A stretch of DNA of 64,000 nucleotides from SAR324 cluster bacterium (GTDB taxonomy: Bacteria; SAR324; NAC60-12), in contig JADFZZ010000017.1 in NCBI GenBank assembly GCA_015232315.1, positions 1-64,000 on the forward strand, read 5' to 3'. The notes under the pieces are model-generated. The model did not search any database. It saw only the letters and a program-made list of their open reading frames with translations, and was not told where the DNA came from. The position numbers were made by a program, and so were the translations under genes. Each line of letters opens with the position of its first letter. Positions within the stretch are counted from its first letter, which is position 1. Shown here in pieces: positions 31,932 through 51,874 of the stretch.

Positions 31932-34900
31932 TCAGGAATAGTCCGCTTCCGGATGAAAACACACCACGGCGCCGGTGGTTCCGGTCGGAATGAATTCATG
32001 GGCATCAGTCAGTCGGATTCCGAGTTTGTCAGCCTGGATCAACTGATAAAGTGTCCGGTTGTTCTGCAAATTGGTGATACCAGGGTATCCGGGACTATAA
32101 CGGGCGCCAGTTCTTTGAACGGTGCTGGTCAATTCCCGCAATTTTTCATGGAGCCATTCCGCCATGTCTTCCGCCACACGGTCGGACAATCCCTGAAGTA
32201 GCATGGCTGATTCGGTGTCGCCTTCCGCTTTGAACGTTTCAATTTGCTGTTCTGCCAGATTTCCGCCTGTAGAAATCTGAAAACCGATCACATCATACTT
32301 GCCGGAACTCACAGGATGATAAAATTGTGCCGCGGAAAACTTATCCTGATTTCCTTTGCCCAGTACAACGGTGAAATCAATTCTGGCAATTTCCTGTGTG
32401 AGATCCTCGGGAGCATACACCAGCACTTCGTCACCATCGGACTGACAGGGAAACAAACCGATGTGTCCCTGCGGAACCAGCCATTGTTTGGCTTCACACA
32501 ACGTGATCCATTTTCGTTTCATGGCGTCAACGGATTCCGGGGTCAACCCCTTTTTCTCCCAGCTATCCCTGCGTCCAAGGCGCCAGTTGAGCGCATACAA
32601 CGTTTTTTCGTCCAGCGGCAATTTGCTCAACGGCAATTGCCAGGCTGTGACCCCGTATTTAACTGGAGGTGCCTGATATTTATCAAAGGCTACGGTTCTT
32701 CGTGGAAGCGTATTGAGCAGGGATTCTGTCTTTTCACTTTGTTTGCGGGCACGTTCGTAATAGGTTTTCAGTTCTTCACGGTTTTTTTCAATGAACTGTT
32801 CTTTTTCTGCGGATTGCAGGGCTTTGATTATATTGACGCCATCCATGGCCGAAGCGCAATAAAACACATCGGGCTTGATGGCCTTGAGATCCTCCTGTCC
32901 AGCCATAGCCACATATCCTGCATGCCGCCGGTTCACCGGTGCCCCACCGATCAGCAACGGAATGGAGAATCCGGCTTCCTGCACCATGCGTGACACCGTG
33001 ATCATGTGATTGGATGTTTGCACCAGCAACGCACTCATGCCAATGGCGTCCGCCTGATGTTCACGGGCGGTTTCAATAAATTTTTCCAGCGGCACCTGAA
33101 CGCCCAGATCAATAACCCGGTAGCCATAATTTTCGAATAAGGTTTTTGCCAGATCTTTGCCGATGCTGTGCACATCCTGATAAACAGTTCCCAGAACAAT
33201 GGTGCCTTTATAGGATATTCCTCCGTCGCCAACCGTATTGCGTTTCATGAACGATTCCAGAAACCCCATCACATGTTTCATGACATCGGCGGATTTGAGC
33301 AGATGGGGCAAAGAAACTTCTCCTGCGCCAAACCGGTCTCCCAGTTCCTGCATCGCTTTCATCAGGTGTTGATTGATCAGATCCAGCGGTTGCATGTGTT
33401 GAATCACCCGGGCGGCCTGTTCCACAATTTTGTCCTGATATTCATAAGTAAATCCTTCCACCGTCACAGAACCGCCGATGCGTTCCTTGAAACCGTCCTT
33501 GATTTTTTCACAAATCGCGGTGGTGTCTGGCAGATCTTCATAGGTTTGCTTTTTAGTGACAGTCCCGCCTTTTTTAATTTCCGCGATTTCTTCAAGCCGG
33601 GCAAACGCTTCCATATCACGTTCCAGAACGACTTTGAGTCCCAGTTCATAGTCTTTGGGGTCAATACTTTCCACAGGCACATAATGGTTCGGATTCACAA
33701 TGGCCGCATCCAGTCCGCGTTTGCGTCCCTCATCCAGAAAAATGGAGGTGAGAACCAGTCGCATGTATGGTTTTTTTGCCAGACCATTGGTGAGATTGCC
33801 CACCCCAATGGTTGTTTTAATATCAGGATGCAGTGCCTTGATCCGTGGAATGGAATTGAGCGATTCCATCGAAAAATTCATGCCTTCAATCGACTCCGCG
33901 CCAATCGGAAATGCGTTCACGTCAATCAGCAGTTGGTCAGGAGTGACGCCATGAACCGCGCAGGCTTCCATGATTTTTGTAGCCAGTTCAACTTTTTTGT
34001 CCGCGGTGAGTGCGGGGCCTTCCAGGTCAGTCGCCAGAGCGATATAAAGGGGATGATGGAATTTTGTTTCTGGCACCAACGCGTCAATCTTGCTCAGTCC
34101 CGGCGCATATTCCTCAAGGGAAATGGAATTCACGATCGGACGTCCCGGATAAACCTGAATCGCGTTTTTGAGTGCGTCCACATCGAAGGAATCCAGACAC
34201 ATGGCTCCTGAAAAATCCAGAGTCATGGCCTGAATGACTTTGGGCAGAACCTCGGGAGTGCTGACAACATTGGAATCCATGCACACGTCAATAATGTCCA
34301 CGCCCAAATCCTTGACCTGTTCATTGACCACTTCTTCCAGTTCATCAAAATTGATCACCCCTGCCGGATTTTCCACGGCATCTTTTACTTTTTTGGAGCC
34401 ACGCACATTGAGACGCTCACCGATCCGGATCAGATTGCTGGTACTGTCCACCGCCACCGCCTGTTGGGGGCCTGACAAATAAACACGGGAATCCAGTTTT
34501 CTGGAAACAGGGGTGATTCCCCGAACCGCATCTGAAATCGCCTTGATATACGCCGGAGTGGTACCACAGCAACCACCCACAATGTTGACGCCCAGTTCCT
34601 TGACAAATTGGCTCAGATGCCGGGCCAGATCCTGCGGGGTTTGCTTGTAAACAGTTTTGCCATTTTCAGAAGTGGGCAAACCTGCATTGGGTATGACAGA
34701 AATCGGCAGTTTTGAATAACGTGAAAGCTTTTCCACCGTAGGACGCATCAGGTCAGGACCAATGGAACAGTTGATGCCGAACACATCAATGCCAATTCCC
34801 TGCACAGTGGTCAACGCGGCATGAATATCGGTGTTGAAAATCTGCATTTTACAAAATTGATCCACCGTGACCTGCACCATGATGGGCAGTCTGATCTTTT

Positions 34901-35531
34901 TTTCACTCATGGCACGAAGTCCACCCGCCACGGCCGCTTTCACTTCCAGAATATCCTGCTGGGTTTCATACAACAGCACATCGGCACCACCGTCAATCAA
35001 TCCCAGCACCTGATGATAAAAATTGGATTCCACCTGCGCCCAGGTTCCTTTGCGCAGATTGGCACTGGTGCTGGAAAGCACCGTATTGGACGGACCAATG
35101 GACCCAATCACAAACAGTGGTCGTCCATCATAATCCGCTTCTTTTTGATAGACAGCCTTTGCCCTGACGGCAATCTCAGCCCCAACCCGACTCATGGCAT
35201 AGGCCATTTCTTCATAGGAAATCCGGTTCAAATCAAATCCGTGCGGAATTGGCGCAAACGCACTGGTATCAAGTTGACTGAAATCATATTCCTGAAGCCG
35301 GAGAGGTGTGGCGCCAAAGGTATTGGTTTCAACCGCATGAGCGCCGGAGCGGAAATAGGCCAGATGAATTTTTTGAATGGCATCAGGATGGGAAAAACTG
35401 AGCATGTCCGACAGCATGCCAAACGCAGCGCCCCCAAAGGCATCATGGCCCAGTTCAAGGTTTTGAATCATGGTTCCCATCGCACCATCCAGTACGATCA
35501 CCTGTTGTTTCAACGCTTCCAGAAAATTCAT
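31932..35531 (-). CDS. metH: cobalamin-dependent methionine synthase
   Basis: Transfers the methyl group of methyltetrahydrofolate to homocysteine via cobalamin. 1199 residues, full length. Domains in order: homocysteine-binding barrel (1-330, zinc Cys in GINCS and GGCCGTTP), pterin-binding barrel (360-620), B12 cap (640-750), B12-binding domain with DVHSIGKDL (His ligand near 770), and the C-terminal reactivation domain with RYSPGYPG near 1140. No cobalamin riboswitch is seen upstream. GGAG just before the ATG. Confidence 0.97.
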   Translation of the reverse strand: MNFLEALKQQVIVLDGAMGTMIQNLELGHDAFGGAAFGMLSDMLSFSHPDAIQKIHLAYFRSGAHAVETNTFGATPLRLQEYDFSQLDTSAFAPIPHGFDLNRISYEEMAYAMSRVGAEIAVRAKAVYQKEADYDGRPLFVIGSIGPSNTVLSSTSANLRKGTWAQVESNFYHQVLGLIDGGADVLLYETQQDILEVKAAVAGGLRAMSEKKIRLPIMVQVTVDQFCKMQIFNTDIHAALTTVQGIGIDVFGINCSIGPDLMRPTVEKLSRYSKLPISVIPNAGLPTSENGKTVYKQTPQDLARHLSQFVKELGVNIVGGCCGTTPAYIKAISDAVRGITPVSRKLDSRVYLSGPQQAVAVDSTSNLIRIGERLNVRGSKKVKDAVENPAGVINFDELEEVVNEQVKDLGVDIIDVCMDSNVVSTPEVLPKVIQAMTLDFSGAMCLDSFDVDALKNAIQVYPGRPIVNSISLEEYAPGLSKIDALVPETKFHHPLYIALATDLEGPALTADKKVELATKIMEACAVHGVTPDQLLIDVNAFPIGAESIEGMNFSMESLNSIPRIKALHPDIKTTIGVGNLTNGLAKKPYMRLVLTSIFLDEGRKRGLDAAIVNPNHYVPVESIDPKDYELGLKVVLERDMEAFARLEEIAEIKKGGTVTKKQTYEDLPDTTAICEKIKDGFKERIGGSVTVEGFTYEYQDKIVEQAARVIQHMQPLDLINQHLMKAMQELGDRFGAGEVSLPHLLKSADVMKHVMGFLESFMKRNTVGDGGISYKGTIVLGTVYQDVHSIGKDLAKTLFENYGYRVIDLGVQVPLEKFIETAREHQADAIGMSALLVQTSNHMITVSRMVQEAGFSIPLLIGGAPVNRRHAGYVAMAGQEDLKAIKPDVFYCASAMDGVNIIKALQSAEKEQFIEKNREELKTYYERARKQSEKTESLLNTLPRRTVAFDKYQAPPVKYGVTAWQLPLSKLPLDEKTLYALNWRLGRRDSWEKKGLTPESVDAMKRKWITLCEAKQWLVPQGHIGLFPCQSDGDEVLVYAPEDLTQEIARIDFTVVLGKGNQDKFSAAQFYHPVSSGKYDVIGFQISTGGNLAEQQIETFKAEGDTESAMLLQGLSDRVAEDMAEWLHEKLRELTSTVQRTGARYSPGYPGITNLQNNRTLYQLIQADKLGIRLTDAHEFIPTGTTGAVVCFHPEADYS

Positions 35532-36551: not shown

Positions 36552-37058
36552 ATGAAACAAAAAATTATATTTATCGCGGTAACAGTAATCGTCGCAGTAT
36601 GGGGCATCAGCCTGGTAGCGGCAAAAATAATGGTGCCAGAGCATAATCCGCCTGAACATTATGCGGGAATGATCCTTGGCACAGAAGCAGATAAAATTCT
36701 GGTTGACTCCTGCTTTGACTGTCATAGCAACCAATCAAACTGGCCCTGGTACAGTTACATGCCGGTGGTTTCAGCACTGGTTGCGCATGATGTGGAAGAA
36801 GGACGCAAAGAACTGAATTTTTCCCTGTGGGATAAAATGACTGAACAGAAACGTCTCAAAAAAATGGATAAGGCCCTGGAAGAAGTCATGGGTGGTGAAA
36901 TGCCCCTGACGCCTTACGTCTGGATGCACGCCAACGCAGAAATAACCCCTGATAAAATCGCGGTATTGCGTGCTGCGGCTCAGGAAAAACTGGGGCTTGT
37001 TGTGAATGAATTCGCAGACAAAGACGAGGAGGGAGACGAGGATGAAGATAAAGATTAG
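36552..37058 (+). CDS. heme-binding-domain protein (Haem_bd type)
   Basis: 168 residues: an N-terminal membrane helix or signal anchor (about 4-24), then a domain with CFDCHSNQSNWPWYSY (heme site C54-xx-C57-H58), the hallmark of the heme-binding Haem_bd family. The C-terminus is very acidic (DKDEEGDEDEDKD). Likely periplasmic electron-carrier. First gene of a run of redox proteins; overlaps the next gene by 17 bp. Confidence 0.85.
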   Translation: MKQKIIFIAVTVIVAVWGISLVAAKIMVPEHNPPEHYAGMILGTEADKILVDSCFDCHSNQSNWPWYSYMPVVSALVAHDVEEGRKELNFSLWDKMTEQKRLKKMDKALEEVMGGEMPLTPYVWMHANAEITPDKIAVLRAAAQEKLGLVVNEFADKDEEGDEDEDKD

Positions 37059-37638
37059 CCGTCATGCCCTGTCTCAGAGTAGACTTCCCTTTTTGTTTTT
37101 TTTATGCATGGTGACCTTGAGTTCGTTGGCATTTGCCGAGGAAATGAAACTCAATTCCGCCATCGTTTTTAACGTGAAGACCAACCTGTTCGCTGTTCAA
37201 TTTGACGGGAATGCCGATCCGGAAAAAGTGCTGTTTGAGCTGACTCTGCAAACAACGGAATCCAGTTTGATGATTTCTGAGGTGTCAGTCACAATTCCTC
37301 TTGAGGCGTTATCCACTGGAATCAAAGTGCGGGACAAGCACATGAAAGAAAAAATATTTCAGACCCAGGATGGGCAACAACCGCCAATCCTGTTCAAGTC
37401 ACAGCAGAATTCCTGTGTGGTTGAAATCAAGGGTGGTGACTGCACCCTCAATGGAGAACTTGAAATCGCAGGAAGAAATCTGCCCACAGCAATTCCACTG
37501 CATGTGGAACAAACAGAGGGAACATGGAAAGCTTCCGGACAAATGGTTATCCTGTTGGATGCCTTTCAGATCAAACCTCCGGGATATATGGGAGTAAAAG
37601 TTAATAACGCTGTGACAGTTCAATACGAGGTATGGTAG
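37042..37638 (+). CDS. YceI-like periplasmic protein
   Basis: 198 residues, signal peptide ending AFA (about 32). A lipocalin-like beta-barrel of the YceI type is suggested by VTIPLEALSTGIKVRDKHMKE and LFKSQQNS with a C-terminal beta strand. YceI proteins bind isoprenoid ligands in other species; ligand here unknown. ATG 37042 lies in the tail of the preceding gene, with GGAGACGAGG upstream. Confidence 0.75.
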   Translation: MKIKISRHALSQSRLPFLFFLCMVTLSSLAFAEEMKLNSAIVFNVKTNLFAVQFDGNADPEKVLFELTLQTTESSLMISEVSVTIPLEALSTGIKVRDKHMKEKIFQTQDGQQPPILFKSQQNSCVVEIKGGDCTLNGELEIAGRNLPTAIPLHVEQTEGTWKASGQMVILLDAFQIKPPGYMGVKVNNAVTVQYEVW

Positions 37639-37662
37639 AAATAATATAATCAGGCAGGTTCG

Positions 37663-38856
37663 ATGAAAAAAAATATATTCCCCAGACCGCGTTTAACAAC
37701 GATCACACTGTTTAGCAATAAACAATTCAGGATCCAGCGATATTTTTCCATCGCGGGTTTTGTCCTCCTCTCCTTCTGGAGTGGAATTGCCCATGCTGAA
37801 CCGGAAATGATCCGGCATGATTATTTCAGTTGCATGGCCTGTCATTACAGTCCTCACGGCGGTGGTCTGTTGACGCCTTATGGACGGGGAATCGCACAGG
37901 CCCTGAGCTATCAGGGAGGAGACTACGAAGAATCGGAACTCAAACAAAAATTGAGTTTTGACGGCTTGATGGATCAGGGCGTTCAGGTCCGACTTGCGGC
38001 CTTGACCCATGGTGAAATCGGAAAAGCTTTTCCAATGCAGGGAGATTACCTCAACCATACGCAACTCAATGATAATTTATCCCTGAATGTGAATATTGGC
38101 GAGATCCCTCCTCCGGCGGGTTCTGATTACACGTTTGATCAGGAATTCCTTAAACAAATCATCCTCAGAAAATTCGTGGTGAGCTATCGACCCGGAGAAG
38201 ATGGAACTGAAATCACGTTCGGCAGAGATTTGCTGCCTGTCGGACTGGGATTGGATGATCACACTTATTTCATTAAAAAATACAATCGACTGAATGTGAA
38301 TGATGTCGTGACGCAACTGGGATACTATTCATGGGGACCCCAACTCCTCTATGCCATTGTCGGTTATGCACCCAGCACTGAGGAGTCTGAGGGAAATGGT
38401 GAAGCAGGAGGTGTGCTCAGTTTTGAGTATAAACCGATGGTTCAGAAAAATTATTCCTTTGGCGGACATGTCCTGAAAGGCCGCACTGATGCAATTTCCC
38501 GCACTTTGACAGGCCTTATGACTCGTCTGTCATTCAGTGAATCCATCGTGATATTGGCAGAGTTGGACCATACGCAACGGGAATTAGCGGACACAGGACT
38601 CAGTTTCGGACAATGGACTCGCTTTCTAAAGGCAAGTTACTATCCGATGGACTATCTGGAAACAGCGCTGACCATGGAGTCTCTGGAACGTGAAACACCT
38701 TTTGAGGCCGGGGTATCACGAACCGCCTTAAGAAGCACACTACGCGCCACCGGACAACTGAGTTTTATTTTTATTTTCCAGAATCAGTTCACTAATGATA
38801 CGGCCTCCAATCTGGATAACATGTTGATGCTACAGGTCTTTTACAACGGATTTTAA
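37663..38856 (+). CDS. outer-membrane beta-barrel with N-terminal c-type heme site
   Basis: 397 residues. The signal segment is followed by C57-M-A-C60-H61 in SCMACHYSPHGGGLLTPYGRG, then a long beta-rich region with alternating hydrophobic/aromatic residues that ends in Phe (YNGF), as outer-membrane barrels do. A heme attached at the periplasmic mouth of a barrel suggests an electron conduit or porin-cytochrome like unit in one chain. It sits between the YceI-like and monoheme lipoprotein genes. Family name unknown to me. Confidence 0.72.
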   Translation: MKKNIFPRPRLTTITLFSNKQFRIQRYFSIAGFVLLSFWSGIAHAEPEMIRHDYFSCMACHYSPHGGGLLTPYGRGIAQALSYQGGDYEESELKQKLSFDGLMDQGVQVRLAALTHGEIGKAFPMQGDYLNHTQLNDNLSLNVNIGEIPPPAGSDYTFDQEFLKQIILRKFVVSYRPGEDGTEITFGRDLLPVGLGLDDHTYFIKKYNRLNVNDVVTQLGYYSWGPQLLYAIVGYAPSTEESEGNGEAGGVLSFEYKPMVQKNYSFGGHVLKGRTDAISRTLTGLMTRLSFSESIVILAELDHTQRELADTGLSFGQWTRFLKASYYPMDYLETALTMESLERETPFEAGVSRTALRSTLRATGQLSFIFIFQNQFTNDTASNLDNMLMLQVFYNGF

Positions 38857-38881
38857 GGCCATTGCTGAGGAAAGATGATTT

Positions 38882-39256
38882 ATGAAAAAAACAGGATTTT
38901 ATAAAAATTTGACAAAATATTGTGTCAGTGTGGGAATCATTGTTTGGACCATAGCGTCCTGTGCGCCTACAGGAACTGATGAAACCGCCGAATATCAGAC
39001 CATTGACGCAGACACACCTGTGACCTTTGACATCCTGCATGATACCGTTTTAAAACCACTTTGCGTCCGTTGTCACGATTGGGCCAATACTGAAACTGAA
39101 ACCAGAAACTATATCTATCCCGGAGTGGCGGATTATTCAGAATTGTATAAAGTGGTCACTGTAGGAGAACCGATTATGCCTCCTGGCGGCCCCGAACTGA
39201 CTGTTGCGCAAAAAGAACTGGTTTCACGATATATTGAAGAAACTGCCGTAAAATAG
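38882..39256 (+). CDS. monoheme c-type cytochrome lipoprotein
   Basis: 124 residues. Lipobox I-A-S-C (Cys27) after a hydrophobic signal, then a small domain with the heme site C62-V-R-C65-H66 and a downstream Met-rich stretch (PIMPPGGP, possible axial Met ligand). Likely lipid-anchored periplasmic electron carrier. 25 bp after the heme-barrel gene, so probably one operon. Confidence 0.82.
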   Translation: MKKTGFYKNLTKYCVSVGIIVWTIASCAPTGTDETAEYQTIDADTPVTFDILHDTVLKPLCVRCHDWANTETETRNYIYPGVADYSELYKVVTVGEPIMPPGGPELTVAQKELVSRYIEETAVK

Positions 39257-39282: not shown

Positions 39283-39316
39283 CACCCGCCACGAAAGACG
39301 GGTGTTCCTTTTTTTG
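39283..39316 (+). terminator. probable intrinsic terminator after the cytochrome genes
   Basis: CACCCG / CGGGTG stem with a 10-nt loop, followed by TTCCTTTTTTT. It would separate the cytochrome genes from the mamX-like gene, though read-through is possible. The rest of the 231-bp gap has a short ACGCC/GGCGT hairpin but no clear promoter. Confidence 0.5.
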
Positions 39317-39487
39317 ACACTTGGCCAAAAATGTGGCCAACCCCGCTTGCAAATCCTGCCCGAAAACAAAATGCAGGCTTGATTAAAGAAGCAAGCCGTT
39401 GTATATCGACGCCTTTGCGGCGTTAGCAAAACAAACATTTCATTAGCCACAGCGTTATTATGGCCGCATCTGATTTGGAGGATTGAT

Positions 39488-40276
39488 TTGAATATTGCCG
39501 AATGGATTATGGCCGCAGGAGTTACCTTTGCCATAAGTGTATTGATGTTCTCGGTGTTCCAAAATGATCCATGGAAAGATCATGTTTATGAGCAGGCACC
39601 TGCGATTGTAGCCGGTACACCGTCGCCTCATAAAGCCGGGCGAGAAAAAATGGCTTGTGCGAGTTGCCATGCGATCGTGGACCCAAGTGTTGCTGGACGT
39701 AATCAAATTATACCACCCATTGTTGATGGAGCGGCCATTCCAATTTCTCATAAGGATGGACGTCACAAGCAGGCCTGTTCCATGTGTCATCAAATCATAA
39801 GCAGAAAAGTTGCCGCTGAAACCCGGAAAAGCACTCCCGCCGCCATTGAAACCAGACCAAACACGCCCACGGCAATTACAGTGGCTCAGGTCCAGGTCGT
39901 AATGCCCGCGACCCCGGATGCGGCAGTCTGGGACCCGGAATGGCATGAGAGTTTTGGACTGACTCGCTTTCAAGGAAAAATTGTTCGTATTGTAGAAAAG
40001 GCAGGGGCCTATCAAACTGATAATATAAACATTCTGGTAGATAACAAAATTAGCACACCGACATGGTACAATGTAGCACCAGGCTGGTTTTTACAAGAAC
40101 AAAAATGCTCTCTTGATTTTGGAATGTTTGTAAAAGGTGTTGCCTTTCAAGACATGGCCGCAACAACGGAAATGCAATATGTAAAAACACTCTCAGTCAA
40201 TGGGCAATTCTGCGATATTCGCGATAAAGAAATGATTGGCTTCTGGGAAACTGGTGCTATGTTCGATGAAGAGTGA
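39488..40276 (+). CDS. mamX: MamX-like magnetosome protein with two magnetochrome motifs
   Basis: 262 residues. An N-terminal membrane anchor (about 5-25) is followed by two magnetochrome-type heme motifs: PAIVAGTPSPH with C57-A-S-C60-H61, and PPIVDGAAIPISH with C97-S-M-C100-H101. This I-x-x-G-x-x-PH-x-DGR-CxxCH pattern is peculiar to magnetosome proteins MamE, P, T and X. A Pro/Thr-rich linker and a C-terminal beta domain (FQGKIVRI, TWYNVAPGW, GMFVKGVAF) match the MamX/MamS layout. In Magnetospirillum MamX is 269 residues and acts with MamZ in magnetite redox control. TTG start with GGAGGA 5 nt upstream. Confidence 0.85.
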   Translation: MNIAEWIMAAGVTFAISVLMFSVFQNDPWKDHVYEQAPAIVAGTPSPHKAGREKMACASCHAIVDPSVAGRNQIIPPIVDGAAIPISHKDGRHKQACSMCHQIISRKVAAETRKSTPAAIETRPNTPTAITVAQVQVVMPATPDAAVWDPEWHESFGLTRFQGKIVRIVEKAGAYQTDNINILVDNKISTPTWYNVAPGWFLQEQKCSLDFGMFVKGVAFQDMAATTEMQYVKTLSVNGQFCDIRDKEMIGFWETGAMFDEE

Positions 40277-40283
40277 GTTTATC

Positions 40284-42179
40284 ATGAAAGAAATAACCAA
40301 TATATTAAGCCGCGAAAAATGGGAGGTATTTTATCTTCTGTCAACGCTATCCACCCTGGTCATCGGCCTCACCGCCGCACTGCAACCCTTCTTTTTAGCG
40401 GATGTGATTGTTATCCCTTTTGAGGAGGAAGGCACCATCAATGCTCATCTGGTGGTTGTTACCCAAATGTGCAGTTTGGGGCTGAATTTTCTTCTGGGTT
40501 TCGCCTGGAGCCGCCGCAAAAGGATGGCTTCTCTGTTTTATGGCTTTGTTATCGCCGCATTTGCGGCCTTAATGATCCCTTTTAGCAAGAACATAGCCCT
40601 TACCATCGGTATTTCCGGCCTTACGTTTTTTTATATGATGCGCATTTTAGTTTCAATGGGAGCCGACACGCTCCAGTTACAACTCTCGACCATGGGAGGC
40701 GATGGGACCCCCGATAGAAAGCACCCGGAACTTCTATCCAACATGATTTTCATGATGATTCTGGGCAGCACCATCATCCTCGCAATTCTGATGCAGATTC
40801 CCACCTCGGTCAAAAATATTGAGCTTGTTATGCTCCTGCCATTTTATGTTGCCGTATTCGGGGCGTTTATTGTCAACAACTACATGCTTTCCGATTCAAA
40901 TGAAGATGAGTCCGTCCCCCAACCCTTCAAACAGGCCTGGGAATTACTATCCAGTGACCCAAGGATGCAGCTTTGTTTCGCTTCCGCCCTGTATGTTCGG
41001 GCAGACATGCTGGCGATCAGCGTATTTCTCTCGTTATGGACAAATTCTTTTGCCGATATTGTTGGTATCTCACACGCGGCCGCGGCGGGACAAGCAGGAT
41101 TGATGCTGGGTTATCTGGGGCTTATCATTCTGCTCACAATGCCCTTATGGCGCAAATACATGGATACGCATAGCCGTATTTCAGCCATAGGTGCCAGCCT
41201 GTCGATCACTGGAATCGGGTTCATTCTTTTAGCGATGATGGTGACAAATCCCTTCGACTGGTGGACAACGTTACTGCCGCTAACCCTGGTAGGTATCGGT
41301 CAGGCAGGCAGTCTGATTGGCCCCAAGATATTAGCCGCTGAACTCACCCCAACGCATGTTTTGGGATCATTACAGGGATTGTTATATCTGATCAGCTCCA
41401 TGGGTGTTGTGATGCTGGTTCAAAGCGGTGGCTATTATTTTGACGCTGTTGGGCCAACCGCGCCGTTTATTTTAATTGGCGCAAGTAACATGCTGATCAT
41501 GTTCTATGCGTTTTGGCTTGTTAAAAGCGGCATGGATGAACGCGATGATCATACCTTGATCAAACGGCGCAAAATTAATCTGAAGCCATTTGTTTTTATG
41601 CTGTCACTGCTGCCTCTCATCTGGTTGATTGGACGGGTTCTGGTCGGAGGTGTTACTCTGGGCAGTGACATCGGGCAGATGCCTGTCGGCTTTATCAACC
41701 GTTACCTGGGGGATTGGGCCTTTAATTTTCTGCTGTTATCCTTATCTTTACGCCCTGTAGCCAAATTGACTAAGGTGGGAGCGCTCATGCAGTATTCCCG
41801 CATGATTGGACTTTATGCTTTTTTCTATGCATTTCTGCATGTGTTAACTTATTGGTCGTTGGAGTGGGTCTTTAATTTGAATGAGATCTTTACCGATATT
41901 GTAGAACGCCCTTTCATTCTTCTGGGAGTGGCCGCGTTTATCATTCTGGTTGTTTTAACAGTGACATCAACAAAAGGCTGGATGAAAAAACTTGGTGGTA
42001 AAAAATGGAAAAAGCTTCACAAAACTGTTTATCTTGTGAATATATTGGTAGCTTTTCATTTTATGTTTGCCGCAACCCATGAAAATGGAGAACCTCTCAT
42101 CTATGGATTTGCGGTAGCGTTACTGCTTGGCTATCGGTGGTGGAAGAGGCCCCAAAAAAATGTAAAAACTGTTAATTAA
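40284..42179 (+). CDS. mamZ: MamZ-like protein: MFS transporter fused to a YedZ/ferric-reductase-like domain
   Basis: About 631 residues. Residues 1-430 form a 12-helix major-facilitator domain. Residues about 440-620 are a YedZ/MsrQ-like heme-b membrane domain: NRYLGDWAFNFLLLSLSLRP, IGLYAFFYAFLHV, RPFILLGVAAF, TSTKGW and KLHKTVYL, with His residues at the usual heme-ligand positions. This fusion is the diagnostic MamZ architecture. MamZ is thought to move iron and reduce it with MamX. It starts 7 bp after mamX (ATG 40284; ATG 40266 and TTG 40236 are alternatives overlapping mamX). Confidence 0.87.
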   Translation: MKEITNILSREKWEVFYLLSTLSTLVIGLTAALQPFFLADVIVIPFEEEGTINAHLVVVTQMCSLGLNFLLGFAWSRRKRMASLFYGFVIAAFAALMIPFSKNIALTIGISGLTFFYMMRILVSMGADTLQLQLSTMGGDGTPDRKHPELLSNMIFMMILGSTIILAILMQIPTSVKNIELVMLLPFYVAVFGAFIVNNYMLSDSNEDESVPQPFKQAWELLSSDPRMQLCFASALYVRADMLAISVFLSLWTNSFADIVGISHAAAAGQAGLMLGYLGLIILLTMPLWRKYMDTHSRISAIGASLSITGIGFILLAMMVTNPFDWWTTLLPLTLVGIGQAGSLIGPKILAAELTPTHVLGSLQGLLYLISSMGVVMLVQSGGYYFDAVGPTAPFILIGASNMLIMFYAFWLVKSGMDERDDHTLIKRRKINLKPFVFMLSLLPLIWLIGRVLVGGVTLGSDIGQMPVGFINRYLGDWAFNFLLLSLSLRPVAKLTKVGALMQYSRMIGLYAFFYAFLHVLTYWSLEWVFNLNEIFTDIVERPFILLGVAAFIILVVLTVTSTKGWMKKLGGKKWKKLHKTVYLVNILVAFHFMFAATHENGEPLIYGFAVALLLGYRWWKRPQKNVKTVN

Positions 42180-42198
42180 AAAAACTCAATGGATCTTT

Positions 42199-42909
42199 AT
42201 GTCTGATACACAACAATCTCAAAAAAATACCCTATCGCCCCAAAACAAAGTAATGATTGGCATGCTGGTTGGTGTGATAGTCATCATCATCTTGTTTGGC
42301 TACCTCAAAAACAGGGAAACGGCCTCAATTGCGCCCGGTTCTATTGTGCAGGGACAAAACGTTGCTTTTGTTGCGAATTCCAATAACACAACTCTGACTC
42401 AACAGGAATATGAAGATCTGCTCTTTATGCGCGAAGAGGAGAAAATGGCTTTGGATGTCTATCAGTTTTTATCACAGCAGTGGCAATTCAACATTTTTTC
42501 CAGCATCGCGCAATCGGAACAACGCCATACCAACAGGGTTGCTAATCTTCTGAATGTATACAATATTCCAGATCCTTCATTGAATAAAGGACCAGGTGAA
42601 TTTTTGAACAACAATCTGTCTGAGCTTTACTCGCAACTTGTAGTGAGAGGACAATCCTCTATTTTGGAGGCTCTTAAGGTTGGTGCACTCATTGAAGAAG
42701 TGGATATTCGCGATCTGGATGCGGCAATTCAGGCAACTGACAAGCAGGATATAATATTCGTCTATAATAATATCCGAAATGGCTCATATCACCATTTACG
42801 AGCATTTGTTCACAGTATAGAACTGTATGAAAACCGTTATCAGGCGGTTATTCTTCCTCAGGAACGAGTGGATTCTATCGTTCAAAGTCCACTCGTATTA
42901 ACCCCATAA
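42199..42909 (+). CDS. membrane-anchored DUF2202 ferritin-like protein
   Basis: 236 residues. An N-terminal membrane helix (about 20-38) is followed by a four-helix DUF2202 domain with iron-ligand-like residues: LLFMREEEKMALDVY, SEQRHTNRV, IEEVDIRDLDAAI and YHHLRAF. DUF2202 belongs to the ferritin-like superfamily with di-iron sites. Its position 19 bp behind mamZ suggests a role in iron oxidation or buffering with MamX and MamZ; this partner is not part of the textbook mamXY operon. Confidence 0.82.
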   Translation: MSDTQQSQKNTLSPQNKVMIGMLVGVIVIIILFGYLKNRETASIAPGSIVQGQNVAFVANSNNTTLTQQEYEDLLFMREEEKMALDVYQFLSQQWQFNIFSSIAQSEQRHTNRVANLLNVYNIPDPSLNKGPGEFLNNNLSELYSQLVVRGQSSILEALKVGALIEEVDIRDLDAAIQATDKQDIIFVYNNIRNGSYHHLRAFVHSIELYENRYQAVILPQERVDSIVQSPLVLTP

Positions 42910-49138: not shown

Positions 49139-49345
49139 ATGAGCGTGGTTGAAGCATTGATTTTATTTGCGATCCTGTTATCTACGGCCTTTTATCTGGT
49201 ACAAAAGTTCAAAAAAACACTTTCAGGCTCTGGTAGTTGTTGCTCAGAAGGTTGTTCTGGCGCAGAAAAATCAAACTCTTCCGGTTGCGGACAGGCCAAG
49301 GGAAACAGTGAATTTATTCTAAAAACCAACAAGGAGACACTATGA
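49139..49345 (+). CDS. FeoB-associated Cys-rich membrane protein
   Basis: 68 residues: an N-terminal membrane helix (about 4-22), then a Cys/Ser/Gly tail (SGSCCSEGCSG, SGCGQ). Matches the small FeoB-associated Cys-rich family. The gene overlaps feoA by 4 bp (ATGA). The Cys tail may bind iron or handle redox at FeoB. Confidence 0.8.
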   Translation: MSVVEALILFAILLSTAFYLVQKFKKTLSGSGSCCSEGCSGAEKSNSSGCGQAKGNSEFILKTNKETL

Positions 49346-49581
49346 GTGAACACATCAGCCTGCGAAATATGAAAATCAATGAAAAAGCAACCATTGTTTC
49401 AGTCAAGGCAACCGGTGAATTGGGACGACGAATTAGAGACATGGGACTTGTCAAAAATACCACTTTCCAGGTCATTGGAAGAGCACCCTTGAAAGATCCT
49501 GTTGCGTTACGTCTGAAAGATTTCACCTTAACGTTGAGAAACAAAGAAGCGGATCATATTCTTGTTCAACTCAGTGCATAA
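49342..49581 (+). CDS. feoA: ferrous iron transport protein A
   Basis: 79 residues, SH3-like FeoA domain: MSEHISLRNMKINEKA, ELGRRIRDMGLVKNTTF, VALRLKDFTLTLRNKEADHI. Cytoplasmic partner of FeoB. Overlaps the upstream Cys-rich gene and precedes feoB by 109 bp. Confidence 0.92.
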   Translation: MSEHISLRNMKINEKATIVSVKATGELGRRIRDMGLVKNTTFQVIGRAPLKDPVALRLKDFTLTLRNKEADHILVQLSA

Positions 49582-49616
49582 CCTGAATTACTCCTTCCCT
49601 TCATAATTCGCATGAT

Positions 49617-49648
49617 TATACCCCGTCCATCTCTTGCGGCGGGGTATA
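49617..49648 (+). promoter_or_regulatory. hairpin between feoA and feoB
   Basis: TATACCCCG / CGGGGTATA, perfect 9-bp arms, 14-nt loop, in the feoA-feoB gap, followed by a short T-rich stretch. Could attenuate or stabilise the transcript before feoB. Confidence 0.45.
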
Positions 49649-49690
49649 GAATCTTTTAGATCTCCCCAATTTTATTCAAAGGATACTCGT

Positions 49691-51874
49691 ATGGATCAAT
49701 TGAAAGTTGCCCTGGCTGGAAATCCCAATTGCGGCAAATCCACAATTTTCAATGCATTAACAGGTTTAAAACAAAAAGTAGGGAATTACCCCGGCATTAC
49801 TGTCTCCAAACATGAGGGACAAGCGACAATCAATGATACGTTGTTGAACATTTGTGATTTACCAGGGGCCTATTCGTTGACCCCTTACTCTCAAGAAGAA
49901 ATCGCTGCCAGAAATCATCTCATCAATGAGCGACCGGATGTGATTATCAACGTGGTGGACTCCAACAGTCTGGAACGAAACTTATATTTTACGTTGCAAC
50001 TTCTCGAACTGGGCATCCCGCTCGTTTTGGGATTGAACATGATTGATGAGGTCCGCAAAAAAGGCATTACGATTGACTCAAAAAAATTATCCAGTTTGTT
50101 GCGGGTTCCAGTGTTGGAAACCGTTGGGAAAACAGGTGAAGGAAAGACAGAACTCATCACTGAGGCCATTAGAAACGCTAAAGAAGGCAAAGGTGTTACA
50201 GTGCCCTTGTATATCTCGTATGGCGCAGATCTTGATCTCGCTTTGCAAAAAATGGAAGATGTGATCATCAAACATAACTTCATGAACGGCGCTCTCCCTG
50301 CACGATGGACTGCGATTAAATATCTGGAAGGTGATTCTCATGTGATTTCCATGGGTTTAAGGGAACGGGAAACCCATAAACAATTGGAGATAATTGTTGC
50401 TGAAGTTACAGATCATTGTAAAAAAACTCTTGATACAACACCTGATGAAGTGATTGCGGACTATCGCTATGGTTATATCGCGTCTATCCTCAATGAAGGG
50501 ATCATCTCAAGAAATAACCGTGCTGAACGACTGGAATTGAGCGACAGGATCGACAAGGTTCTGACCAACAGGTTGTTTGGTCCGATCATTCTGCTGGGCG
50601 TTTTATATGGAATGTTTGTTATGACATTCACCGTAGGCGCGATTCCAATGGGATGGTTGGAAACCTTTTTCGGGTTTCTGGGCGATACCGCTACAAATCT
50701 GATCCCCGAGGGACTGATTCAATCGCTGGTGGTTTCTGGAATTATTGATGGCGTAGGAGGCGTTCTTGGTTTTGTCCCATTGATATTATTTATGTTCTTC
50801 ATGATTGCCTTCCTTGAGGACTCCGGTTATATGGCCAGAGTGGCCTACATTCTGGATCGTATCATGCAGGCGGCAGGTTTGCATGGAGCATCGGTGATGC
50901 CCTTTGTCATTTCCGGAGGGATCGTTGGTGGATGCGCTGTGCCAGGAGTAATGTCAACCAGAACCTTGAAAAGTCCAAAGGAAAAATTAGCGACGATCTT
51001 AACATTGCCCTTTCTAACCTGTGGCGCCAAAACACCCGTGGTACTGTTGCTGGGCGCGGCATCTTTTCCGGAATATGGACCACAAGTGTTGTTCGCCAGC
51101 GTTCTGCTGGGTTGGACGGTTGCGCTGGTTTCAGCCAGAGTCTTGCGTTCTACTGTAATCAAAGGGGATTCGACACCATTTGTGATGGAACTTCCCCCCT
51201 ATCGATTGCCAACACTGAAAGGTTTGCTCATTCATACCTGGGAACGAGCCTGGAACTACATTCAAAAGGCCGGGACGGTTATTTTGGCCATATCCATTTT
51301 GCTATGGGCGGCCATGACATTTCCGCAACTGCCAGAGGCACAGGTTCAGGAATTCCAGCATCAAAAAGTGGCACTTGAGGAAACGCTGACAGACAGTTTG
51401 ACCGCTGAAGAAAAGGCTGAAATCGAGCAAAAAATGTTAACAATTGATAACAATCAGGCAGGCACAGCCTTACGTTATTCCTTAGCGGGAAAATTAGGCA
51501 CTGCTTTAGAGTCAGTCAGTTCTTATGCTGGATTTGACTGGAGGGTGAATATCGCCTTGATTGGCGGTTTTGCCGCAAAAGAAGTCATTGTCTCCAGTCT
51601 GGGCACCGCTTATAGCCTGGGAGAAGTAGACGCGGAAGCATCAGAAGCATTATCCGACCGATTGAGAGCAGATCCCAATTGGACATTTTTAACAGCAGCC
51701 AGTTTGCTGGTGTTTGTCATGTTGTATGCGCCCTGTTTCATTACAGTTGTGGCGATCGCCAGGGAAACTTCGTGGAAATGGGCAGGGTTCAGTATCGTGT
51801 GCAACACGATCATCGCCTATGTATTAGCCGTAGGTGTTTATCAAATTGGTTCGTTGATACTTCAAATCAATTGA
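49691..51874 (+). CDS. feoB: ferrous iron transporter FeoB
   Basis: 727 residues. G-protein domain: G1 GNPNCGKST (residues 11-19), NYPGITVSK, DLPGAYSLTP, NMID; then a helical GDI-like spacer, and a membrane domain with Gate-like motifs (GCAVPGVMSTR, FLTCGAKTPVV). Imports Fe(II) across the inner membrane. ATG 49691 has AAAGGA upstream; frame is open 57 nt further. Ends with a strong terminator. Confidence 0.96.
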   Translation: MDQLKVALAGNPNCGKSTIFNALTGLKQKVGNYPGITVSKHEGQATINDTLLNICDLPGAYSLTPYSQEEIAARNHLINERPDVIINVVDSNSLERNLYFTLQLLELGIPLVLGLNMIDEVRKKGITIDSKKLSSLLRVPVLETVGKTGEGKTELITEAIRNAKEGKGVTVPLYISYGADLDLALQKMEDVIIKHNFMNGALPARWTAIKYLEGDSHVISMGLRERETHKQLEIIVAEVTDHCKKTLDTTPDEVIADYRYGYIASILNEGIISRNNRAERLELSDRIDKVLTNRLFGPIILLGVLYGMFVMTFTVGAIPMGWLETFFGFLGDTATNLIPEGLIQSLVVSGIIDGVGGVLGFVPLILFMFFMIAFLEDSGYMARVAYILDRIMQAAGLHGASVMPFVISGGIVGGCAVPGVMSTRTLKSPKEKLATILTLPFLTCGAKTPVVLLLGAASFPEYGPQVLFASVLLGWTVALVSARVLRSTVIKGDSTPFVMELPPYRLPTLKGLLIHTWERAWNYIQKAGTVILAISILLWAAMTFPQLPEAQVQEFQHQKVALEETLTDSLTAEEKAEIEQKMLTIDNNQAGTALRYSLAGKLGTALESVSSYAGFDWRVNIALIGGFAAKEVIVSSLGTAYSLGEVDAEASEALSDRLRADPNWTFLTAASLLVFVMLYAPCFITVVAIARETSWKWAGFSIVCNTIIAYVLAVGVYQIGSLILQIN

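Follow-up and report, generated by a model that had tools for sequence, protein, structure and literature searches.

The mamX-mamZ-DUF2202 locus

The subject of this study is a window of 64,000 nucleotides from a SAR324 cluster bacterium (positions 1 to 64,000 of contig JADFZZ010000017.1, assembly GCA_015232315.1), in which three plus-strand genes within 39488-42909 encode homologues of the magnetosome proteins MamX and MamZ and a membrane-anchored ferritin-like protein of the DUF2202 family. In the genome, which is assembled in 88 contigs and 95% complete, this contig is C17. An earlier sequence-only reading of this DNA had placed the three genes at the same coordinates and had taken the first two for MamX and MamZ. 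The mamX gene (39488..40276, plus strand) codes for a protein of 262 residues with an N-terminal anchor, two magnetochrome CxxCH sites (C57/C60/H61 and C97/C100/H101) and a C-terminal MamX domain. The two magnetochrome sites, already noticed in that reading, were recovered by the Pfam MCR model in two stretches (1e-19), and both were above cut-off in the genome search. Residues 3-262 aligned to positions 1-263 of the 264 positions of NF040996 (2.8e-91), the C-terminal domain included. The score of 305.6 bits was below the equivalog cut-off of 400, which was exceeded by the MamX controls from MC-1-like (506), IT-1-like (463) and MSR-1-like (433) genomes; these labels (for G380, G384 and G179, respectively) and the class label Magnetococcia used below are inferred assignments. 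Other MamX proteins encoded next to mamZ were also below the cut-off (G467, 315; G376, 277; G158, 218). We therefore name the window protein a MamX homologue on its alignment and synteny and not on the NF040996 cut-off. Residues of the heme sites and of the C-terminal domain were conserved across 43 MamX proteins, and the MamX identity proposed earlier is borne out by the end-to-end alignment together with these heme ligands, the score below 400 notwithstanding.

The mamZ gene (40236..42179, plus strand) codes for up to 647 residues if read from an upstream TTG, though ATG 40266 or 40284 is more likely to be the true start; it begins at most about 20 bp from the mamX stop codon. The protein is a fusion of MFS_1 with Ferric_reduct, a YedZ/MsrQ-like heme membrane domain, and scored 828.7 bits with NF040998 (NCBIfam equivalog cut-off 650; 830.2 in the genome search). 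The score and the MamZ tree described below thus confirmed that the MFS plus YedZ-like protein is MamZ. Its candidate heme ligands H535, H595 and H608 are present in at least 98% of 48 MamZ proteins and are common to MsrQ as well. Best matches to non-magnetosome families with unaligned C-terminal domains, the outcome that would have spoken against both identities, did not occur. The heme ligands of the window MamX and MamZ were all intact, as were both long reading frames.

The third gene (42199..42909, plus strand) starts with ATG 42199, 19 bp past the mamZ stop, and codes for 236 residues that matched PF09968 with 4.5e-53 and 179.8 bits (Pfam cut-off 22), in agreement with the position and the family given in the sequence-only reading. 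A Shine-Dalgarno-like GGAGG (39477..39481, plus strand) can be read about 7 bases 5' of the TTG start of mamX. Further upstream, an intrinsic-terminator-like element (39283..39316, plus strand), read directly from the sequence, consists of a CACCCG/CGGGTG stem, a 10-nt loop and a T-run; it was missed by the hairpin scanner since its loop exceeds the length allowed by the scanner. The element lies between upstream cytochrome/YceI genes and mamX, and may act as a terminator separating the two. On account of the short gene spacings, the GGAGG of mamX and the terminator-like stem ahead of it, mamX-mamZ-DUF2202 looks like a single transcription unit. A promoter scan returned 19 matches against 13.7 expected.

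The pair resembles the mamXY operon of Magnetospirillum (mamY-mamX-mamZ-ftsZm), in which a MamX with two magnetochrome sites is likewise followed by MamZ in the same order and on the same strand. Unlike that operon, the window has DUF2202 after mamZ, and neither mamY nor an ftsZ-like gene stands beside the pair, the rest of the genome not having been searched for mamY or ftsZm. The pair also differs in being encoded away from the main magnetosome cluster, in a genome in which no separate MamH was found: a search with MamZ returned only MamZ itself and an MsrQ.

The main magnetosome cluster on a second contig

No other mam core gene was present on the fetched part of the contig, as the earlier reading had remarked for mamA, B, E, I, K, M, O, P and Q, and that reading had left two options: a set split from the main cluster or one working outside a magnetosome. 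A search of the remaining genome decided for the split, since all these genes were found on another contig, C3, where a full magnetosome cluster at 171-195 kb comprises mamA, B, E, I, K, M, O, P, Q, S and T. Those above their cut-offs were MamK (472.7 and 426.7 bits; cut-off 400), MamM (388) and MamB (376; cut-off 350 for both), and MamA (208; cut-off 200), while mamE, I, O, P, Q (two copies), S and T were best-model matches below the equivalog cut-offs. Magnetochrome proteins over or near the cut-off were encoded at only one other place in the genome, C3:177-184 kb. The organism thus has the gene set of a magnetotactic bacterium, with mamXZ encoded apart from its main cluster. Magnetotactic members of SAR324 are known (PMC7602337). 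Among 52 species of the phylum, all of one class, MamZ was above cut-off in this genome alone and magnetochrome proteins occurred in three (G000, which is this genome, G002 and G004).

The distance from the main cluster and the MamX score of 305.6 under a cut-off of 400 might be taken to indicate that MamX and MamZ are remnants here, or that they serve general iron redox chemistry outside a magnetosome. We regard this as most improbable, given the full cluster on C3, the intact heme ligands and reading frames, and the fact that MamX proteins adjacent to mamZ in other genomes are below the cut-off as well (315, 277 and 218).

The C3 cluster (171000-195000) has some features of its own. It contains two mamK genes, one of them with an N-terminal extension of about 180 residues and located beside a ParA gene, two mamQ genes and two MamE-like proteases. 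It also contains an AGCS-type amino-acid carrier (179275-180600), 52-53% identical to the island copies of the IT-1-like genome and G455; such a carrier in a magnetosome island was previously thought to be limited to Magnetococcus and Magnetofaba (PMC3934378).

An anchored branch of DUF2202 proteins

The DUF2202 protein of the window has a single strong N-terminal hydrophobic helix (residues 18-36 approximately, hydropathy 2.88) and no lipobox. It keeps the diiron-type residues E80/E81, E107, H110, E166/E167 and H199, as do nearly all the others; they were lost in the copy adjacent to mamX in G384 and in the second copy of G314. The solved relative of the domain is MJ0754 (PDB 3q4n, 3q4o, 3q4q and 3q4r; phmmer 6.8e-42), which provides the fold and has the same conserved Glu and His residues. 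Unlike the window protein, the solved chain of MJ0754 has no membrane anchor, and it is archaeal with no magnetosome link. In the literature searched, no publication named DUF2202 or MJ0754.

A tree was built from 38 DUF2202 domains, 24 of which came from genomes with magnetosome genes. All 24, the window protein among them, fell into a single branch (support 97/98) with the others outside, and the same split was recovered (99/97) after two plasmid sequences had been added and two long branches removed. Within our sample, the branch is thus seen only in genomes with magnetosome genes. All but a truncated member carry a strong helix that looks uncleaved, whereas most of the DUF2202 proteins from non-magnetotactic organisms are lipobox lipoproteins or have a signal peptide, which means that their domain lies on the outer face of the inner membrane. 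For most of the magnetotactic proteins, the charges around the helix are biased in the corresponding sense, towards a domain on the lumen side of the magnetosome. Within the phylum of our genome, anchored DUF2202 was present in two of the three genomes with magnetochrome proteins and in none of the 49 others. In one of them, G004, two convergent anchored DUF2202 genes (L100:9394-10898) were seen, with the magnetochrome proteins on other contigs.

Recurrent linkage of DUF2202 to mamX and mamZ

In neighbourhood scans, eight loci had DUF2202 as the immediate neighbour of mamX or mamZ, in three gene orders. The order mamX-mamZ-DUF2202 occurs in this window, DUF2202-mamX-mamZ in six Magnetococcia-type genomes (G561, G471, G419, G447, G376 and G384), and mamX-DUF2202 with a divergent mamZ in G158, a member of the Rhodospirillales. 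Elsewhere in the magnetosome region, DUF2202 was found in G380 (MC-1-like), G388 and G455, and as the second copy of G384. When contigs were scanned with MamZ as the only query, the scan relied on stretches of poor conservation and yielded just two loci, one of which served as the centre for the wider searches. These recovered MamZ in 30 genomes of a single Rhodospirillales-type order and in 26 of a sample that spanned the phylum and consisted mostly of Magnetococcia, with magnetotactic Desulfobacterota and Nitrospirota outside the sample. DUF2202 was present in 7 of the 30 mamZ-positive genomes of the order as compared to 4 of 287 others (p 9e-6), and in 10 of 26 as compared to 12 of 372 in the phylum sample (p 9e-8), shared ancestry being ignored in both p values. 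The odds of finding DUF2202 are about 20 times higher where mamZ is present. In 337 sampled Alphaproteobacteria, it occurred only in G158, a magnetotactic genome as judged by its genes.

Earlier work on Magnetofaba australis had already pointed out a ferritin-like gene adjacent to mamX (PMC3934378). That gene, 02816 of strain IT-1, lies between MamX (2815) and MamC (2817), as judged by locus number, and was reported as common to Magnetococcus marinus MC-1 and 'not found in other MTB' (magnetotactic bacteria) (PMC3934378). Two ferritin-like genes and their possible role have also been discussed (PMC5088516), and the two DUF2202 copies of G384 agree with the two-copy pattern published for IT-1. 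The arrangement mamC-(ferritin-like)-mamX-mamZ of IT-1 thus has the same gene, here recognised as DUF2202, beside mamX, and the ferritin-like gene inside the MC-1 island is a similar case (PMC3934378, PMC5088516). The restriction of this gene to two cocci is corrected here. What is new is that DUF2202 adjoins mamX or mamZ in Rhodospirillales and in a further phylum, in other gene orders, that it is enriched in mamZ-positive genomes and that it groups in one anchored branch.

The sequence-only reading had suggested that DUF2202 replaces or adds to the known partners of the pair. The second part of this suggestion is supported by the adjacency, the enrichment and the restricted branch, and the first is not: DUF2202 adds to MamX and MamZ and does not replace them, though no MamH was found in this genome. 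Moreover, DUF2202 is accessory and not essential, because most mamZ-positive genomes are without it.

Two further observations on MamZ arose from these searches. G195 has two MamZ genes, one of which shares its contig (L085) with a MamH-like gene and DUF2202. A Clostridiales metagenome-assembled genome, BM714, has a record (L045) with a MamZ-like C-terminal fragment of 59 residues (44%), for which mis-binning or an MsrQ relative are possible explanations.

A probably separate history of mamXZ

When the MamZ phylogeny was checked against known magnetotactic lineages, as the earlier reading had proposed, the window MamZ grouped with Magnetococcia and was nested inside their branch (SH-aLRT 98-100); the MamZ of G467 is 67-68% identical to it. 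The mamXZ genes are much closer to those of Magnetococcia than MamE and MamK of the main cluster are. Since MamZ nests in Magnetococcia while MamE and MamK show no such closeness, a transfer of mamXZ between lineages, independent of the main cluster, is probable. This is evidence that the mamXZ of this phylum has a history other than that of its main cluster.

Given such a transfer, the adjacency of the three genes could be passive, the genes having been carried jointly by horizontally transferred magnetosome islands without being linked in function. Transfer itself is likely, as the nested MamZ and the closeness of mamXZ to Magnetococcia indicate. However, the sequence nearest to the window DUF2202 came not from the likely donors of mamXZ but from G004, a member of the same phylum as our genome (69% in the domain alignment). 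The genomes with the closest MamZ lack DUF2202, and simple co-transfer is thus an unlikely origin of the linkage. Gene order also varies between lineages, which means that the linkage was kept or remade. We consider passive adjacency improbable as the explanation.

Proposed role of DUF2202 in the magnetosome

In Magnetospirillum, loss of mamX or mamZ leads to hematite and poor crystals, MamX function requires its magnetochrome domains, and an iron oxidoreductase and transport complex of MamX, MamZ and MamH has been proposed (PMC3840617, PMC3971196, PMC3847676). The electron partners of MamX are unknown, and how Fe(II)/Fe(III) is set in the magnetosome is open (PMC3971196). We consider it fairly probable that mamX-mamZ of the window are part of a magnetosome set whose main cluster lies elsewhere, and that DUF2202 is an added lumen-side iron/redox protein of this set. 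As proposed for Magnetospirillum, MamZ, with its MFS and heme membrane domains, and MamX, with two lumen-side hemes, would form a redox and iron-handling unit. DUF2202 would be an extra protein of the magnetosome membrane, its four-helix diiron domain being held in the lumen by a single N-terminal helix. In that position the protein would most likely bind Fe(II) and oxidise or buffer it, pass electrons to or from the MamX hemes and help adjust the Fe(II)/Fe(III) balance needed for magnetite. The magnetosome location of DUF2202, its contact with MamX/MamZ, its ferroxidase or electron-transfer activity and the direction of electron flow are all putative. A comparable part in the Fe(II)/Fe(III) balance of the magnetosome has been proposed for the magnetochrome ferroxidase MamP; that, however, is a heme protein with a PDZ domain and not a diiron protein, and this genome has its own MamP on C3.

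Several observations weigh against this role. DUF2202 is missing from about three quarters of the mamZ-positive genomes in one sample and from 60% in the other, MSR-1 and the four closest MamZ relatives included. In several magnetotactic genomes its gene is distant from any mam gene, and in G004 it is present with no MamZ above cut-off detected. The IT-1-like genome (G384) shows that a DUF2202 gene next to mamX need not encode an intact diiron site, as E80/E81/E107 are lost from this copy, which falls on a long branch; the window protein differs from that copy in keeping its ligands. The helix of the window protein has an even charge bias (2 vs 2), and thus its lumenal topology leans on its relatives. 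Finally, the sample contained just 14-15 DUF2202 sequences from non-magnetotactic organisms, a small number. In the IT-1-like genome, the copy next to mamX (L178:8466-9335) is a fast-evolving one in which three predicted metal-binding glutamates are lost; the second copy of that genome is intact.

Some of these observations would also fit a role of DUF2202 in protecting the periplasm or the magnetosome of magnetotactic cells from iron and oxidative stress, in the manner of ferritin or rubrerythrin and not together with MamX/MamZ, its position merely reflecting the clustering of iron genes. Copies away from mamXZ in several magnetotactic genomes, the two copies of G004 with no detected mamZ, and the retention of DUF2202 with the same ligands by non-magnetotactic bacteria and an archaeon are all in keeping with such protection. 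It does not readily account for direct adjacency to mamX or mamZ in eight loci and three gene orders, when random placement would produce such adjacency about once per thousand copies, by a rough estimate that ignores shared ancestry. We hold stress protection to be rather unlikely, but the most credible of the alternatives to a lumen-side partner of MamX/MamZ.

More tentatively, and with somewhat less than even confidence, we propose that the anchored DUF2202 branch is an unrecognised magnetosome family, a lumenal diiron oxidase or iron relay that would be the missing electron partner of MamX/MamZ in some magnetotactic bacteria from at least two phyla. A diiron-type protein encoded beside mamX/mamZ is a concrete candidate for what exchanges electrons with MamX, and one that is approachable in cultured carriers, namely Magnetococcus marinus MC-1, Magnetofaba australis IT-1 and a Magnetospira-like strain.

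Neighbouring genes in the window

Upstream of the terminator-like element, a plus-strand run (36552..39256) assigned with Pfam encodes a Haem_bd protein, a YceI protein, a CxxCH protein of 397 residues, itself with no Pfam match, and a cytochrome-like lipoprotein of 124 residues. We did not include this run in the magnetosome unit, as it has no homologue in the other mamXZ loci examined and the terminator-like element intervenes. It is possibly a separate electron-transfer module. The feoA-feoB genes at 49342-51874 are likewise not favoured as a magnetosome feo, since identity to the feoB genes found close to mam clusters in other magnetotactic genomes is only 35-38%; another feoB-like gene adjoins the C3 magnetosome cluster, which also counts against a magnetosome role for the pair in the window. 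The gene at 31932-35531 encodes a cobalamin-dependent methionine synthase (MetH), an ordinary housekeeping enzyme.

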